From the NCBI GenBank assembly GCA_004295885.1, contig SEDG01000017.1:1-37725 (forward strand): 37,725 bases of DNA, given 5' to 3'. The position numbers and the translations under genes were made by a program. Source of the DNA: Pedobacter sp. GTDB taxonomy: Bacteria > Bacteroidota > Bacteroidia > Sphingobacteriales > Sphingobacteriaceae. The notes below the pieces were generated by a model. That model had not been told where the DNA came from. It saw only the letters and a program-made list of their open reading frames with translations, and did not search any database. Shown one piece after another: positions 12,594 to 33,356 of the stretch (position 1 is its first letter; each line of letters opens with the position of its first letter).

Positions 12594-15500
12594 ATGATGA
12601 AGAAAATTTTTACGCTATTTTTATGCTCTCTCTTTGCAATCGCGGCAAATGCAGAAACCCAACCGCAATGGATGCGTTATCCATCAATTTCACCAGATGG
12701 CACTAGCATTGTGTTCACTTTTAAAGGTGATTTATACAAAGTGTCTAGTGCTGGAGGAACAGCCCAGCAAATTACATTTCACGATGCCCATGATTTTATG
12801 CCGGTATGGAGTAAAGACGGAAAACAGATTGCGTTTGCTTCAAATCGTTATGGCAATTTTGATATTTTTATCATGAACGCCAATGGTGGTGCCGCAAAAA
12901 GATTAACTTATCACTCTGCAGACGAGTTTCCTTATAGCTTTACTTTCGATAATAAAGCTGTTGTTTTTGGAGGTGTAAGACAAGATGAAGCAATTCACCG
13001 TCAATTTCCCACAGGTTCACAACCCGAGCTTTATAGCGTAGCTACAGAAGGTAGCAGAATAAATCAAATATTTACTATTCCTGCCGAATATGTTCAGTCA
13101 TCAAAAGATGGATCAAAAATGATTTATCATGATAAAAAAGGTGGCGAAAATGAGTGGCGTAAACACCATAAATCTTCTGTTGCTAGAGCAGTTTGGTTGT
13201 ATGACAAAAAAACTAATAAACATCAACAACTGAGCAGTTTTTATGGAGAAAATAGAAACCCAGTATTCGCAGACCAAGAAAAAAGCATTTATTATCTAAG
13301 TGAACAAAGTGGAAACTTTAATATTCACAAAATGCCTTTGTCAGCTAATGCTAAAAATGAGCAAATAACTAATTTTAAAACGTTTCCAGTTAGATTTTTA
13401 AGCTCTTCTAACGACGGGTTGTTAAGCTTTGGTTATGATGGGGAAATTTACACGCTAAAGCCTGGGCAGCAGCCTAAAAAGGTGGAGGTAGCAATTACCA
13501 CTCAAGATAAAAACAATAACGAAAGCTTCATTGCGATTAATGGCGGAGTTAGAGAGATGGCAGTATCTCCTGATGGAAAAGAAGTCGCGTTTATAGCCAG
13601 GGGCGAAGTTTTTGTAACCTCTGCCGATGGCAAAATGACTAAAAGAGTAACCAATACTTCAGAGCAAGAAAGGTTTGTAGATTTTGCTCCAGATGGTAAA
13701 TCAATTATTTATTCTAGCGAGAGAAATGGAAAATGGCGCATTTATGAAGTGAAAAAAGTTCGTAAAGAAGAACCTTATTTCTTCGCATCAACAGTGTTAG
13801 AGGAGAAGTCTTTAGTAAGCAATGATAAGGATAATTATATGCCAAGCATATCGCCCGATGGCAAAAGAATAGCCTATATAGAGGATAGAAGAGCTTTAAG
13901 GGTGATGGAAATTGGCACCAAACAAGCAGTTACTTTATTGTCTCCAGACGAGTTATTTTACATGCAAGATGGCGACCAGTATTTCACCTGGAGCCCAGAT
14001 AGTCAATGGCTTTTGGCAACTTATCGTCCAACCATGTCAAATGGCGAAGTGGTGTTGTTAGATGCAAAGGGAAAACTGCCAATGAGAAATTTAACGAAAA
14101 GTGGCTTTGGAGATGGCAATGCAAAATGGGTAAATGGTGGCAAACAAATGTTGTGGTTTAGCAATAGAGATGGACTAAAATCTCAGGCAAATTCAGGTTC
14201 TTCACAACGTGATGTTTATGGAATGTTTTTCACAAAAGATGCTTGGGATCGTTTCAACCTAGATAAAGAAGATTTTGCCTTGTTAAAAGAAATGGAGGCT
14301 ACGCAAAAGAAAGCTAAAGATGAAGCCGATAAGAAAGCCGAAAAAGAAAAGGGAATAAAACCTATTAAGCCAGATTCTACCGTTAAATTTGATTGGGATG
14401 GAATGGAAATGAGAAAAGCTAGATTAACCATTCACTCTTCTTCATTAAGTGATGCAGTAATTACAAAAGACGGCGAAAAGCTTTTCTATTTGGCAAGTTT
14501 CGAAAAAGGAACTAATCTTTGGAGTACCAATCTTCGTACAAAAGAAACCAAGATGGAAATTGCTTTAGACGGAATGGGTGGAAGCCTAATGTGGGACAAG
14601 ACGCAAAAGAACTTGTACTTGTTAAGCGGAGGTAGAGTTTCTAAAATCAATACTGAAAATAATAAAAGAGAGCCAATTACCATTGAGGGAGAAGTGCAAG
14701 TTAATGCGGAAGCAGAACGTGAGTATATGTTTGAACACGTTTGGCTAAGAAACAAAGGGATGTTTTACACCGCTAATATGCATGGGGCAGATTGGGAAGC
14801 TTTAAAACCAGCCTATAAAAAATATCTTCCATCTATTGGTAATAGCTACGAATTTGCAGAAATGTTGTCGGAACTATTGGGCGAGCTTAACGTGTCTCAC
14901 TCTGGCGCTAGGTTTGGAAGCAGTACACCTACCGATGACGCTACAGCTTCACTGGGTATTTTATTAAACTATTCGCACAAAGGCGATGGAATATTAATTG
15001 AAGAAATTTTAGCTGGTGGACCATTAGATAGAGCAGCGAATACTGTTGCTAAAAAAGGAATGATCATCGAAAAAATAGATGGTCAATTAGTAGAAGCCAA
15101 TCAAGATATTGCTAAGTATTTAAACAGAAAAGCTGGTCAGCTCACCTTGCTAGAGATATTAAATCCTAAAAATGGAGAGAGACAGCAACTAACGATGAAG
15201 CCAATTCCCTTAGCGCTAGAAAATCAATTGCTTTACAGAAGATGGGTTAAAATTAACCAAGCAGAAGTTGACAGTTTAAGTAAGGGACAATTAGGTTATG
15301 TGCATATTCCTGGAATGAGTGATGGTCCTTATCGTAACGTTTATGAGGAAATGATGGGTAAATATGCTGACAGAAAAGCTGTTATTGTAGATACTCGATT
15401 TAATGGAGGTGGAGATTTAGTGTCTGATTTAGCAATGTTCTTTACGGGTCAGAAATTTTTAGATTATGCAACCGATAAACGTTCGGTAGGTGGCGAGCCA

Positions 15501-15842
15501 ACATTTAGGTGGACTAAACCTACCTTGGCAATGTTTAACGAGGCAAACTATAGCGACGGCCATTGTTTCTCTTGCGGGTATAAAGATTTAAAAATCGGAA
15601 AAACAGTAGGTATGCCGGTTCCAGGTACCTGTAGTTTTGCAGGTTGGGAAACATTAATTGATGGTACAAGATGGGGTTCTATTCCTATTAGTGCTAAAAA
15701 TAAAGCTGGAGAATGGTTAGAGAACAATGAAACTAAACCAGACATACTGGTAAAAAATATGCCTGGAATGATTGATCAGGGCAAGGATGAACAGTTAATT
15801 GTAGCTATTAAAGAATTAATGACAGAAGTAAAACCTAAATAA
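12594..15842 (+). CDS. Tricorn-like S41 protease with N-terminal WD40/PD40 propeller repeats and PDZ
   Basis: Repeated SPDGKxIAF-type blades; PDZ ILIEEILAGGPLDRA; catalytic-region EANYSDGHCFSCGYKDLKIGKTVGMPVPGTCSFAGWE. Confidence 0.92.
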   Translation: MMKKIFTLFLCSLFAIAANAETQPQWMRYPSISPDGTSIVFTFKGDLYKVSSAGGTAQQITFHDAHDFMPVWSKDGKQIAFASNRYGNFDIFIMNANGGAAKRLTYHSADEFPYSFTFDNKAVVFGGVRQDEAIHRQFPTGSQPELYSVATEGSRINQIFTIPAEYVQSSKDGSKMIYHDKKGGENEWRKHHKSSVARAVWLYDKKTNKHQQLSSFYGENRNPVFADQEKSIYYLSEQSGNFNIHKMPLSANAKNEQITNFKTFPVRFLSSSNDGLLSFGYDGEIYTLKPGQQPKKVEVAITTQDKNNNESFIAINGGVREMAVSPDGKEVAFIARGEVFVTSADGKMTKRVTNTSEQERFVDFAPDGKSIIYSSERNGKWRIYEVKKVRKEEPYFFASTVLEEKSLVSNDKDNYMPSISPDGKRIAYIEDRRALRVMEIGTKQAVTLLSPDELFYMQDGDQYFTWSPDSQWLLATYRPTMSNGEVVLLDAKGKLPMRNLTKSGFGDGNAKWVNGGKQMLWFSNRDGLKSQANSGSSQRDVYGMFFTKDAWDRFNLDKEDFALLKEMEATQKKAKDEADKKAEKEKGIKPIKPDSTVKFDWDGMEMRKARLTIHSSSLSDAVITKDGEKLFYLASFEKGTNLWSTNLRTKETKMEIALDGMGGSLMWDKTQKNLYLLSGGRVSKINTENNKREPITIEGEVQVNAEAEREYMFEHVWLRNKGMFYTANMHGADWEALKPAYKKYLPSIGNSYEFAEMLSELLGELNVSHSGARFGSSTPTDDATASLGILLNYSHKGDGILIEEILAGGPLDRAANTVAKKGMIIEKIDGQLVEANQDIAKYLNRKAGQLTLLEILNPKNGERQQLTMKPIPLALENQLLYRRWVKINQAEVDSLSKGQLGYVHIPGMSDGPYRNVYEEMMGKYADRKAVIVDTRFNGGGDLVSDLAMFFTGQKFLDYATDKRSVGGEPTFRWTKPTLAMFNEANYSDGHCFSCGYKDLKIGKTVGMPVPGTCSFAGWETLIDGTRWGSIPISAKNKAGEWLENNETKPDILVKNMPGMIDQGKDEQLIVAIKELMTEVKPK

Positions 15843-15852
15843 TTCAAAAAAT

Positions 15853-15884
15853 TTTGCTTTTAATCAAAAACTATTACATATTTG
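15853..15884 (+). promoter_or_regulatory. Candidate promoter for the trp leader (TTTG-N20-CATATTTG)
   Basis: TTTG at 15853-15856, CATATTTG at 15877-15884 (near TAnnTTTG), spacing about 20 nt; leader ATG at 15893. Confidence 0.5.
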
Positions 15885-15892
15885 CCAACAGA

Positions 15893-15946
15893 ATGATACA
15901 GATAAACGCAAATAAAAATTGGTGGTGGCATTACGCAACAGCGTGA
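15893..15946 (+). CDS. trpL: trp operon leader peptide MIQINANKNWWWHYATA*
   Basis: ATG ATA CAG ATA AAC GCA AAT AAA AAT TGG TGG TGG CAT TAC GCA ACA GCG TGA. Three consecutive Trp codons, followed by a hairpin and terminator, upstream of trpD. Confidence 0.9.
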   Translation: MIQINANKNWWWHYATA

Positions 15947-15948
15947 TG
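15929..15948 (+). promoter_or_regulatory. Leader hairpin overlapping the end of the leader ORF (CAUUACGC-AACA-GCGUGAUG)
   Basis: 8-bp stem (one U-G) with an AACA loop, immediately after the WWW codons and including the UGA stop. Confidence 0.7.
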
Positions 15949-15992
15949 TGATCCTTATTTATACGTTTATTTTTTTATAAAAATATTTTGAA

Positions 15993-16026
15993 GGGTTGCT
16001 TGTAAAAAGGCAACCTTTTTTGTTTT
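15993..16026 (+). terminator. Attenuator (intrinsic terminator) of the trp leader
   Basis: GGTTGC(T)-TGTAAAAA-(G)GCAACC followed by TTTTTTGTTTT, 66 nt before the trpD ATG. Confidence 0.85.
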
Positions 16027-16091
16027 AAACCTATGACCGATCCTAATTTATTGGGGAGCTCTCATAAACCATAAAGACAATAAATTAATTG

Positions 16092-17081
16092 ATGAAACAA
16101 ATACTAAATCACCTTTTCGAAAATAAAACCTTTAGCAAAGAAGAAGCGCAACGAATTCTGACTTCAATTGCTTTAGGAGAATTTAACAGCTCACAAATTG
16201 CAGCTTTTATTACTGCTTATGGCATGAGAAATATCACGGTTGATGAATTACAAGGCTTCCGCGATGCGATGTTAGATTTATGCTTAAAAATTAATCTGTC
16301 AGATTTCGAACTGGTAGACCTTTGTGGTACTGGTGGCGATGGAAAAGACACTTTTAATATCTCAACTTTAGCCTCGTTTGTGGTGGCTGGCGCTGGTCAT
16401 AAGGTGGCAAAACATGGTAATTATGGAGTTTCTTCTGGTTGCGGTTCATCAAATGTAATGGAATATTTAGGTTATACTTTTACCAATGATGAAAGTAAAT
16501 TGAAACGTAGTTTAGACCAAGCGGGCATTTGTTTTTTACATGCTCCATTATTTAACCCAGCAATGAAAACTGTAGCGCCAATTAGAAAAGAATTGGGCGT
16601 AAAAACATTTTTTAACATGCTTGGCCCAATGGTAAATCCGGCGCAGCCGAAAAACCAAATTGTAGGTGTATTTAGTTTAGAGTTGGCTCGTATATATGCA
16701 TACCTATATCAGCAAACAGATAAAAATTATACCATTATCCATGCAGTGGATGGCTTTGATGAAGTATCACTAACCTGCGACTTTAAAACTTTCAGTAAAA
16801 AAGGAGAGGCTTTAAATAAGGTTTCAGATTTAGGTTTTGAAGAAATCAGCGAAAAGGATATTCAGGGTGGAGACACTGTAGAATCGTCAGCAGAAATTTT
16901 TACCAATATTTTAAATGGAAAAGGAACAGATGCACAAATGAATGTGGTGTTAACAAATGCAGCATTAGCCATCCAAACCATAAAACAAGATGTACCTTTT
17001 GCAGATTGTTATTACGAAGCCGAAGAATCTTTAATGAATAAAAAAGCTTTAGAGAGTTTTAAAAAATTGATAACTGTTTAA
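16092..17081 (+). CDS. trpD: Anthranilate phosphoribosyltransferase
   Basis: DLCGTGGDGKDTFNIST, KHGNYGVSSGCGSSNV. The ATG at 16092 is preferred over the TTG at 16089. Confidence 0.97.
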   Translation: MKQILNHLFENKTFSKEEAQRILTSIALGEFNSSQIAAFITAYGMRNITVDELQGFRDAMLDLCLKINLSDFELVDLCGTGGDGKDTFNISTLASFVVAGAGHKVAKHGNYGVSSGCGSSNVMEYLGYTFTNDESKLKRSLDQAGICFLHAPLFNPAMKTVAPIRKELGVKTFFNMLGPMVNPAQPKNQIVGVFSLELARIYAYLYQQTDKNYTIIHAVDGFDEVSLTCDFKTFSKKGEALNKVSDLGFEEISEKDIQGGDTVESSAEIFTNILNGKGTDAQMNVVLTNAALAIQTIKQDVPFADCYYEAEESLMNKKALESFKKLITV

Positions 17082-17087
17082 TAAAGT

Positions 17088-17160
17088 AACCATATAAGGC
17101 ATTTAAGATAATATAAGTCTTTACGCCTAACTTAAATGAACTTATATTTCTTATATGGTT
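17088..17160. repeat. Intergenic iterated-word inverted repeat between trpD and trpF (AACCATATAAG ... CTTATATGGTT)
   Basis: Perfect 11-bp terminal inverted repeat. Interior has further ATATAAG and CATTTAAG words, with reverse complements on the right. Confidence 0.8.
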
Positions 17161-17172
17161 CAAGCTTAAAAA

Positions 17173-17796
17173 ATGAAGTTGAAACTAAAAGTATGTGGAA
17201 TTAGGCAAGCGAGTAACATCGCTGCGGTAGCAGATTTACAGCCTGACTATTTGGGTTTTATATTCTACCAAAAATCGCCGCGTTTTATTAGTGAGGTTTC
17301 CGCAGAGCTGATTAAATACGTTCCATCAACCATAAAAACCACAGGGGTTTTTGTTAGCGAAGATTTAGAAACGGTTAAGGCTTATATATTCAAGTACAAT
17401 TTAAAAGCGGTGCAATTACATGGAAAAGAAGATGTGGCTTATTGCACAGAATTAAAATCCACAGGTGTGGAAGTAATAAAAGCTTTTGGAATAGATGAAA
17501 ACTTTGATTTTTCTAAATTAAAAGGTTATTTAAACGCAGTTGATTATTTCTTGTTCGATACCCAAACACCCGCTCACGGAGGTTCAGGGAAAATATTCGA
17601 TTGGAAATTATTAACAAACTATACTTTCGATAAACCTTATTTTTTAAGCGGTGGAATTGATTTAACACATACAACAGCAATAAAAACTATAAACGATCCA
17701 AGACTTTACGCCCTAGATGTTAATAGCAAGTTTGAGCTAGAGCCAGGGCTAAAGGATGTAAAAAAGTTAAGAGAATTTTTTAAAGAGATTAAATGA
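17173..17796 (+). CDS. trpF: Phosphoribosylanthranilate isomerase
   Basis: KLKVCGIRQASNIAAV, PDYLGFIFYQKSPRF, FLLFDT-type FLFDTQTPAHGGSGKIFDW, LSGGI. Confidence 0.95.
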   Translation: MKLKLKVCGIRQASNIAAVADLQPDYLGFIFYQKSPRFISEVSAELIKYVPSTIKTTGVFVSEDLETVKAYIFKYNLKAVQLHGKEDVAYCTELKSTGVEVIKAFGIDENFDFSKLKGYLNAVDYFLFDTQTPAHGGSGKIFDWKLLTNYTFDKPYFLSGGIDLTHTTAIKTINDPRLYALDVNSKFELEPGLKDVKKLREFFKEIK

Positions 17797-17798
17797 TA

Positions 17799-17876
17799 TT
17801 GTCATACTGAGGAACGAAGCATCTCTAAGCGAGTAATAATCAATGAAGAGACTCTTCGCTTCGTTCTGAATGACAA
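17799..17876. repeat. GTCATNCTGA-family palindromic intergenic repeat between trpF and trpB
   Basis: TTGTCATACTGAGGAACGAAGCATCTCT ... GAGACTCTTCGCTTCGTTCTGAATGACAA. Confidence 0.75.
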
Positions 17877-17889
17877 AAACAATAAAATT

Positions 17890-19092
17890 ATGAGCTATTT
17901 TGTAAACGAAAGAGGTTATTACGGAGATTTTGGAGGAGCATACATCCCAGAAATGTTATATCCAAATGTAGAAGAGTTAAGGCAACAATACTTAGGCATC
18001 ATTAATGAGCCAAGCTTTCAAGAAGAGTTTAAAGCCCTTTTGAAAGATTACGTTGGTCGCCCTTCGCCGCTATATTTGGCTAAGCGACTATCTGAAAAAT
18101 ATGGCGCAAATATCTTCCTTAAGCGAGAAGATTTAAACCATACTGGCGCACATAAAATAAACAATACCATTGGTCAGATTTTACTGGCAGAACGTTTAGG
18201 TAAAAAACGAATTATCGCCGAAACTGGTGCTGGTCAGCATGGTGTAGCAACAGCAACGGTTTGCGCCCTAAGAGGATTAGAATGCGTAGTTTACATGGGC
18301 GAGATTGACATTAAACGTCAAGCGCCAAATGTAGCTCGTATGAAAATGTTAGGAGCCAAAGTTGTTCCTGCAACATCAGGTAGCAAAACCCTAAAAGACG
18401 CAACCAACGAAGCCATGAGAGATTGGATTAATAACCCTGTTGATACGCATTATATCATTGGTTCGGTGGTTGGTCCGCACCCTTATCCAGATATGGTTTC
18501 TATTTTTCAGTCGGTAATTTCCGAAGAAACTAAAAAGCAATTAATTGAGCAGACTGGCAAAGACCAACCAGATTATGTGATCGCCTGCGTAGGCGGTGGC
18601 AGTAATGCGGCTGGTATGTTCTACCATTTTATCGATGATGAAAATGTAAAACTAATAGCCGTTGAAGCAGCTGGTAAAGGTGTAGCGTCAGGTCTATCTG
18701 CAGCCACAACTTACTTAGGCAAAGAAGGTGTGTTACACGGTAGCCGAAGCATTTTAATGCAAACACCAGACGGACAAGTGGTAGAACCACATTCAGTTTC
18801 AGCAGGTCTGGATTATCCTGGTATTGGTCCACAACATGCGCATCTGTTCAAAACTGGTCGCGGTAAATATGTGTCTATCACAGACGATGAATCTCTTGAT
18901 GCAGGTTTGCTATTAACACAGCTCGAAGGAATAATTCCAGCAATAGAAAGTGCACACGCCTTAGCTTACCTCGAATACATGGGGTTTAAAGGAGGGGAAA
19001 ACGTGGTTGTTTGTTTATCCGGTAGGGGCGACAAAGACATGGAAACTTATATGAAACATTTTAACATTCGACCAATTGAAAGACTTACGTAA
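17890..19092 (+). CDS. trpB: Tryptophan synthase beta subunit; essentially full length, with a C-terminus altered at the trpA junction
   Basis: [10 protein letters not shown] (PLP Lys), [27 protein letters not shown], then RPIERLT* read out of frame from trpA-derived DNA. Confidence 0.96.
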
Positions 19093-19603
19093 AACCGTTA
19101 CTATTCCTATTTTATTGATGGGTTACGTAAATGTGGTTTTACAATATGGCGTGGCAAACTTTTGCAAGAAATGTAAAGAGGTAGGAGTGGATGGCTGCAT
19201 TATTCCCGATTTGCCAATGTACGAATATGAAGAAATGTACCACACCTGTTTCGAGGAACACGGCATAAGCAATATCTTTTTGGTAACGCCACAAACATCA
19301 GAAGAACGTATTCGCAAAATTGATGGCCTGAGTAATGCCTTTATTTACTTGTTGTCTTCTGCAGCAACTACCGGAAAAAATTTAGACGTTTCTGCTACGG
19401 CAAGAGATTATTTCGCTCGTATAAAAGGTATGAATCTAATAAATCCATTGATGATTGGCTTTGGTATTTCCGACAAAAAAACGTTTGATTCTGCTAATGA
19501 ATATGCAAGTGGAGCCATCATCGGCAGTGCATTCGTAAAAAGCTTAAATGAAAATGATGTCGAAGGAAGCGTGAAGGGATTTATGAGGCAGTTTAGATAT
19601 TGA
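19067..19603 (+). pseudogene. trpA: Tryptophan synthase alpha subunit, 5'-truncated (N-terminal ~80-90 residues missing)
   Basis: The frame reads [22 protein letters not shown]... to the C-terminus. The N-terminal TrpA region is absent (FTAGYP, E49-region ElGxPfSDPxADGP). The only track start is TTG at 19076, inside the trpB end. Confidence 0.85.
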
Positions 19604-32993: not shown

Positions 32994-33218
32994 GTTTTAG
33001 CTGGTGTGTCATTCTGAGCGTATGATAAGACTTTTTTGAAAAGCCAACAACTTCAACTATCAAAGTTAGTCCGGCTATTCGTTCCAATTTCCGATGAAGA
33101 ATCGGGATGTTTACACTGCTATTGGGTTTAAAATGCAAGGATTGTACAGTTATTTAGGTTTGCGCCTAGCACCTGCCAAGAACCCCTATTTTTGTTAATT
33201 AAACCTGATTGAAGTGGA

Positions 33219-33256
33219 AAATTTTGTCATCCTGAGCCTGTCGAAGGACAAAATTT
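33219..33256. repeat. GTCATCCTGAGCCTGTCGAAGGAC-type hairpin repeat
   Basis: AAATTTTGTC-ATCCTGAGCCTGTCGAAG-GACAAAATTT, a perfect 10-bp stem. Confidence 0.7.
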
Positions 33257-33356
33257 GAAATGAAAAGCAGGGCTGCATTTGCGATAGCGTACTACCTTTC
33301 ATTTTCAAAGCCTTAATAAAAACTAATTTGGTTGCATCAGCTATAAATTAGGGCAA

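Follow-up and report, generated by a model that had tools for sequence, protein, structure and literature searches.

Attenuation of tryptophan operons through a translated leader peptide is already well known as a mechanism. In Bacteroidota, the closest described element is the Bacteroid-trp leader RNA (Rfam RF01692; Weinberg et al. 2010, PMC2864571). A literature search found no paper on trp attenuation in Pedobacter, a genus of Sphingobacteriaceae, and this family appears to deploy such switches at two separate trp operons.

The locus considered here lies in a window of 37,725 nucleotides (the whole stretch of DNA that was analysed), which belongs to a Pedobacter genome of fragmented assembly (969 contigs, ~82% complete). 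Reading of the sequence places a leader ORF, a hairpin and a terminator 5′ of trpD-trpF-trpB-trpA. Together they very probably constitute an attenuator of transcription, mediated by the ribosome, through which tryptophan supply governs trpDFBA: the leader ORF is rich in Trp codons, the terminator is located between this ORF and the first gene, and the RNA contains three mutually exclusive pairings, 1:2, 2:3 and 3:4. The elements of the locus are as follows.

15853..15856, forward strand: TTTG, which may be the −33 element of a promoter of the Bacteroidota sigma-A type (putative role, from the sequence).
15877..15884, forward strand: CATATTTG, probable −7 box that agrees with TAnnTTTG at 5 of its 6 specified positions and ends 8 nt short of the leader ATG.
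15893..15946, forward strand: leader peptide ORF MIQINANKNWWWHYATA of 17 codons and a stop, with ATG at 15893, the Trp codons WWW at 15920-15928 and the stop UGA at 15944-15946.
15900..15972, forward strand: outer helix joining early leader codons to sequence past segment 2 (15900-15908:15964-15972 and 15912-15916:15958-15962, from folding).
15921..15955, forward strand: 1:2 hairpin, the resting form, 14 bp with loop AACA (15921-15922, 15924-15926 and 15928-15936 with 15941-15949 and 15951-15955).
15948..15956, forward strand: segment 2, GUGAUCCUU, the antiterminator strand, predicted to form 9 bp with 15991-15999 when the Trp codons are occupied.
15990..16019, forward strand: intrinsic terminator GAAGGGTTGCTT gtaaaa AGGCAACCTTTT, −15.1 kcal/mol, then a T run to ~16026.
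15991..15999, forward strand: segment 3, AAGGGUUGC, which forms the terminator's left arm or pairs with segment 2 (from pairing and folding).
16092..17081, forward strand: trpD, encoding anthranilate phosphoribosyltransferase, at the start of the controlled operon (TIGR01245, E 4.9e-90).
17173..17796, forward strand: trpF, phosphoribosylanthranilate isomerase (PF00697, E 5e-39).
17890..19092, forward strand: trpB, tryptophan synthase beta chain (TIGR00263, E 3e-175).
19076..19603, forward strand: trpA, 3′ part only, the first ~80 residues missing (PF00290 matched from model position 80).

The first-pass annotation had drawn attention to the position of the switch at trpD. The downstream gene is indeed trpD by TIGR01245, and this placement is usual in the family, whose trp regulon is split. 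By TrpD, the nearest named relative is Pedobacter frigiditerrae (97% identity), whose leader, MIQINTNKNWWWHNATA, is near-identical to that of the window and whose trpA is intact. Relative to this species (L266, 7030-7430), the window carries at 19040-19603 a deletion of ~320 bp that fuses codon ~81 of trpA with the trpB end and lengthens TrpB by the tail IRPIERLT; it represents either a real loss or an assembly error of the fragmented genome. Between the terminator and trpD, an insertion of ~60 nt (16030-16091) with a 10-bp inverted repeat (16044-16053 / 16078-16087) is missing from P. frigiditerrae, and other Pedobacter carry different insertions at this site, some with several repeats. The trpD-trpF spacer (17088-17160) holds an imperfect 31-nt inverted repeat, 81% complementary and partly kept in P. 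frigiditerrae, which looks like a small dispersed palindromic element, and the trpF-trpB spacer (17794-17881) holds the inverted repeat GAACGAAGC / GCTTCGTTC, which resembles dispersed palindromes found 5′ of trpE in relatives. Elsewhere in the window, a Flavo-1 RNA occurs at 33197-33278 on the forward strand (46.2 bits for an Rfam cut-off of 42), with a weaker copy in opposite orientation on the reverse strand (33064-33133), 64 nt from the first.

A relation to Bacteroid-trp, suggested at first reading, is borne out by covariance models. RF01692 aligns with positions 15873-16000 over its full length (model 1-131), at 35.4 bits for a gathering cut-off of 49. The consensus structure of the class, a long Trp-codon helix followed by the start of a terminator, is recovered at the locus by the full-length alignment, by RNAalifold on nine relatives and by pair counts. 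The locus also shares with the class its occurrence in Bacteroidota, a Trp-codon peptide 5′ of a trp gene, and homology to members above the cut-off. Model R2, built from nine Pedobacter leaders, recovers family members that exceed the cut-off at trpD (E 4e-12 to 3e-6) and, in other families, Bacteroid-trp members at trpE- or trpB-headed operons (E 5e-5 and weaker). Judging from its sequence, the element of the window is thus a homologue of Bacteroid-trp with a similar mode of action; because 35.4 bits falls below 49, it is described in these terms and not as a cut-off-passing Rfam match. Across the family, 84/150 genomes contain a match to RF01692 at E up to 1, and only 8/150 (~5%) pass the cut-off, which is why current annotation misses most cases. 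Scanning the window with Trp_leader (RF00513), the Rfam model of Escherichia coli trpL, yields no hit up to E 5. Other Trp leaders in the genome of the window were sought by covariance model only, and the weaker RF01692 matches found there (C141 and C785) are unrelated. Among 15 secondary matches inspected in relatives, one, at trpE of G032, comes with a WWW leader while the others sampled have no Trp leader, so that the RF01692 background near E 0.1-1 appears to be mostly due to chance.

The 17-codon ORF with three consecutive Trp codons was correctly placed at 15893-15946 by the first-pass annotation, and its conservation is extensive. TrpD was found in 134/150 Sphingobacteriaceae genomes, and the 500 nt upstream were analysed for 132 of them. 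A leader ORF containing WW is present in 121/132 of these regions and WWW in 103/132, while the same search returns a WW leader in 40 of 2640 composition shuffles (1.5%) and in 2 of 132 reverse complements; these rates exclude a chance origin. Within the genus, the full leader ORF occurs in 19/20 genomes, and in the remaining one the 500-nt cut took off the start of the ORF. Nine codons precede the first Trp in 105 of the 124 parsed family leaders. One genus (G002, G027, G044; loci L114, L124, L110) has no Trp leader ORF at trpD, with the terminator kept in at least two of its three genomes; its trpE leaders have a single Trp codon, and it is possible that it illustrates a stage in the loss of attenuation.

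The terminator is equally constant. A terminator scan returned two sites versus 0.2 in shuffles, and the proposed hairpin with its U-tract is present at 15990-16019 and followed by a T run. All 124 parsed family leaders have a terminator, 22-54 nt past the leader stop. A gene for a tricorn-like protease (12594-15842) ends ~150 nt before it on the same strand, and the hairpin and T run could in principle be the terminator of that gene, the WWW ORF being fortuitous. The probability of this explanation is negligible: WW ORFs occur at ~60 times their frequency in shuffles, the leader helices covary, and tblastn did not find the protease 5′ of trpD in the other loci tested, where leader and terminator are kept. 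The terminator is therefore not simply that of the protease gene.

Within the attenuator, the resting hairpin is more extended than proposed at first. The 8-bp stem 15929-15936 : 15941-15948 exists as announced, but the helix does not begin after the Trp codons; it runs through them (15921-15936 : 15941-15955, 14 bp), and the Trp-codon stretch is the resting partner of segment 2. The 1:2 hairpin is 100% paired in the close clade and shows two-sided changes at 7/11 pairs family-wide, and the outer helix shows them at 7/8 pairs (82 sequences).

The identity of the antiterminator has also been revised. In the window, segment 2 and segment 3 form a 9-bp duplex of −10.4 kcal/mol. This helix is 100% paired in nine close relatives, with a two-sided U-A/C-G change in 4/9, and its mean energy in the family is −10.9 kcal/mol versus −6.0 kcal/mol for shuffled sequence. 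The antiterminator of the first-pass annotation was instead GCAAC (15935-15939), in the loop of the leader hairpin, paired over 5 bp with GUUGC (15995-15999; GTTGC in the DNA) within the same attenuator. Such pairing is possible, with a duplex of about −7.3 kcal/mol in the window, and across the nine nearest relatives 97.8% of cells conserve it. It is nevertheless very unlikely to be the functional one: it shows no two-sided change in these nine relatives, and the GCAAC stretch (hairpin left arm and loop) is a weaker partner of the terminator arm than segment 2 in 123/124 species, with a family mean of −2.7 versus −10.9 kcal/mol. Moreover, a ribosome of usual footprint at the third Trp codon would hide most of GCAAC, and the fold predicted for the stalled state uses 15948-15956 in its place. 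The 5-bp antiterminator should be replaced by 15948-15956 : 15991-15999, of 9 bp.

Segment 2 starts 26-28 nt past the first Trp codon in 90/124 species, while its distance to the stop codon varies widely, the stop lying up to 23 nt after it or up to 7 nt before it (−23 to +7 in the 124 species). It is therefore the Trp codons that determine the spacing, as a stalling mechanism demands, and the idea of a switch that overlaps the stop codon is not sustained by conservation. On the other hand, the WWW ORF and an alternative pairing, without which in relatives the initial proposal was to be abandoned, are both conserved.

Covariation of these helices was evaluated in two ways. The swap test, which is alignment-free, compares each strand with its own partner and with the partners from other species. 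It gives z values of −13.1 for the outer helix, −17.3 for 1:2, −3.1 for 2:3 and −20.0 for the 3:4 terminator, with 0.1 for the negative control. The modest signal of 2:3 is explained by the conservation in sequence of segments 2 and 3. In the second approach, R2 aligned 83 leaders (82 distinct), in which 89.4% of cells are standard pairs and 20/28 pairs have two-sided changes, for 247 cells in total; none of 500 shuffles reaches any of the pairing or two-sided counts. This alignment is fitted to the structure and thereby favourably biased, the swap test is free of such bias, and neither fully removes the effect of species relatedness. Overall, the computed helix anatomy and its conservation are accompanied by covariation that strongly supports the leader hairpin, the outer helix and the terminator.

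In the mechanism that we infer from this anatomy, RNA polymerase would start just 5′ of the leader ORF, with a ribosome following behind. When charged tRNA-Trp is scarce, the ribosome would stall on WWW (15920-15928) and cover the Trp codons, which would block the 1:2 hairpin (15921-15936 : 15941-15955) and leave segment 2 (15948-15956) to pair with segment 3 (15991-15999); the terminator would then be blocked and trpDFBA transcribed. When tryptophan is plentiful, the ribosome would reach UGA (15944-15946), with its 3′ edge at ~15956, and mask segment 2, while a leader without ribosome would form the 1:2 hairpin. With segment 2 either masked or engaged in 1:2, the 3:4 hairpin (15990-16019) would form and transcription would end near 16020.

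This scheme was examined by folding the RNA up to segment 3 in the 124 species, with the ribosome placed by its usual footprint. With this footprint, coverage extends to 12 nt beyond the first nucleotide of the A-site codon. At least four expected 2:3 pairs are obtained in 124/124 species with the ribosome at the first Trp codon, versus 31/124 without ribosome and 35/124 with the ribosome at the stop. The corresponding values for the window are 9.3, 0.1 and 2.6 expected pairs, and with the ribosome at UGA its remaining RNA folds into the terminator only. State folding thus supports the classical scheme in which starvation leads to readthrough, and plenty or absence of translation leads to termination. 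With the ribosome at the stop, the model still predicts considerable 2:3 pairing in several close relatives (G115, G130, G139, G105), where masking of segment 2 may thus be incomplete. Ribosome-mediated attenuation with a Trp-codon leader and a terminator, as outlined at first reading, is retained, with the role of antiterminator withdrawn from GCAAC.

Sensing by other means would dispense with ribosome stalling. In other phyla, T-box or TRAP systems regulate trp operons (PMC4027176), and a T-box, a TRAP-type protein or control of trpD translation initiation could be imagined here. Such a sensor is extremely improbable, given that no T-box match is found in the window at E up to 5, that the conserved Trp codons occupy a constant position, preceded by nine codons, and that their pairing partner is the antiterminator strand itself. 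Initiation control is further disfavoured by a terminator lying sufficiently far from the trpD start, at a distance that varies among family loci. Stalling of the ribosome on the Trp codons accordingly remains the preferred explanation.

The end of TTTG precedes the leader ATG by ~7-13 nt in most of the 124 family leaders and by 8 nt in the window, and many of these leaders possess a second TTTG ~27-28 nt further upstream. In Flavobacterium psychrophilum, the −7 box spans −12 to −5 (PMC9723704). On this basis, we infer that transcription probably starts near 15889, 4 nt before the ATG, which would give a 5′ UTR of ~4 nt. In the phylum, 5′ UTRs are seldom short or missing: ~3.7% of those of Bacteroides thetaiotaomicron are <10 nt (PMC7366714), and 5.5% are leaderless in F. 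psychrophilum. The leaders of both trpD and trpE appear to be nearly leaderless. A leaderless Trp leader has a precedent, since the trpL transcript of Sinorhizobium meliloti starts at the ATG (PMC7298713).

In the genome of the window, trpE is carried by another contig (C660; locus L034, region 1237-1386). It is preceded by a leader, MISNKTNTWQWRGYSEKSFVVALCTL followed by a stop, which contains WQW, and then by CCCGACGTAACCACACGTCGGG with a run of six T. Leaders with two or three Trp codons close together are found in 85 of the 90 trpE upstream regions of family members, with a terminator in 85/85; motifs in relatives are WWW, WW or WLW (L146-L235). Two of the remaining regions have a WWW leader with a GTG start and three have a single Trp. 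One genome whose region holds a WQW leader (G100) is counted in the 85 and was left out of the swap and folding tests (n=84). The swap test gives z values of −7.6 for the antiterminator, −14.0 for the terminator and −10.1 for segment 1, with −2.1 for the negative control; some signal thus comes from relatedness alone, and the trpE pairings are well past it. The 2:3 form is predicted in 83/84 leaders with the ribosome at the first Trp codon versus 5/84 at the stop, and TTTG ends 6-7 nt before the ATG in 53/84. No trpE leader (0/11 loci) matches Bacteroid-trp in Rfam at E up to 1, and R2 yields weak matches only.

A second attenuator of the same logic seems to be located at trpE, the first gene of an operon in which trpG and trpC come next, an order taken from relatives. 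The pathway thus falls into two operons, each with a Trp leader, a terminator and seemingly a switch of its own. A literature search, mostly without subscription papers, found no description of such an arrangement. It is likely that Sphingobacteriaceae combine a split pathway (trpEGC and trpDFBA) with two independent ribosome-mediated attenuators and nearly leaderless leader transcripts, the trpE attenuator representing an RNA class of its own that the searched Rfam release does not contain.

Bacteroid-trp-like attenuation thus appears nearly universal at trpD in Sphingobacteriaceae, and an unlisted second Trp attenuator is revealed at trpE. The corrected pairing scheme, with its exact positions, is testable. 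Two attenuators acting on one pathway, in bacteria without Shine-Dalgarno sequences, would provide a clean system for studying how transcripts with short leaders acquire a ribosome fast enough for coupling, and for asking whether each operon senses a different degree of Trp shortage.

The locus can finally be compared with known systems. It resembles E. coli trpL in its 1:2 / 2:3 / 3:4 logic, in the presence of Trp codons in segment 1 and in a terminator 5′ of trp genes. It differs from it by three consecutive Trp codons instead of two, by trp genes split over two operons, and by a leader that is not led by a Shine-Dalgarno sequence, in a phylum that lacks them (PMC6847099). In the trpL system of S. 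meliloti (PMC7298713), the trp genes are likewise split, a Trp leader peptide mediates attenuation, and transcription begins at the leader ATG. There, however, the attenuator is found at trpE(G) only and trpDC is reached in trans by the attenuator RNA, whereas here both operons appear to have their own. For F. psychrophilum, which belongs to the same phylum, strong clues of leader-peptide attenuation before amino-acid biosynthesis operons have been reported; it is from a different family, and the main-text passage concerned names no trp case (PMC9723704). The likeness with Bacteroid-trp comprises the phylum, a Trp-codon leader peptide, a long helix between the Trp codons and downstream sequence, and a location 5′ of trp genes, while the helix sequences of the window have drifted and its terminator lies mostly outside the Rfam model.
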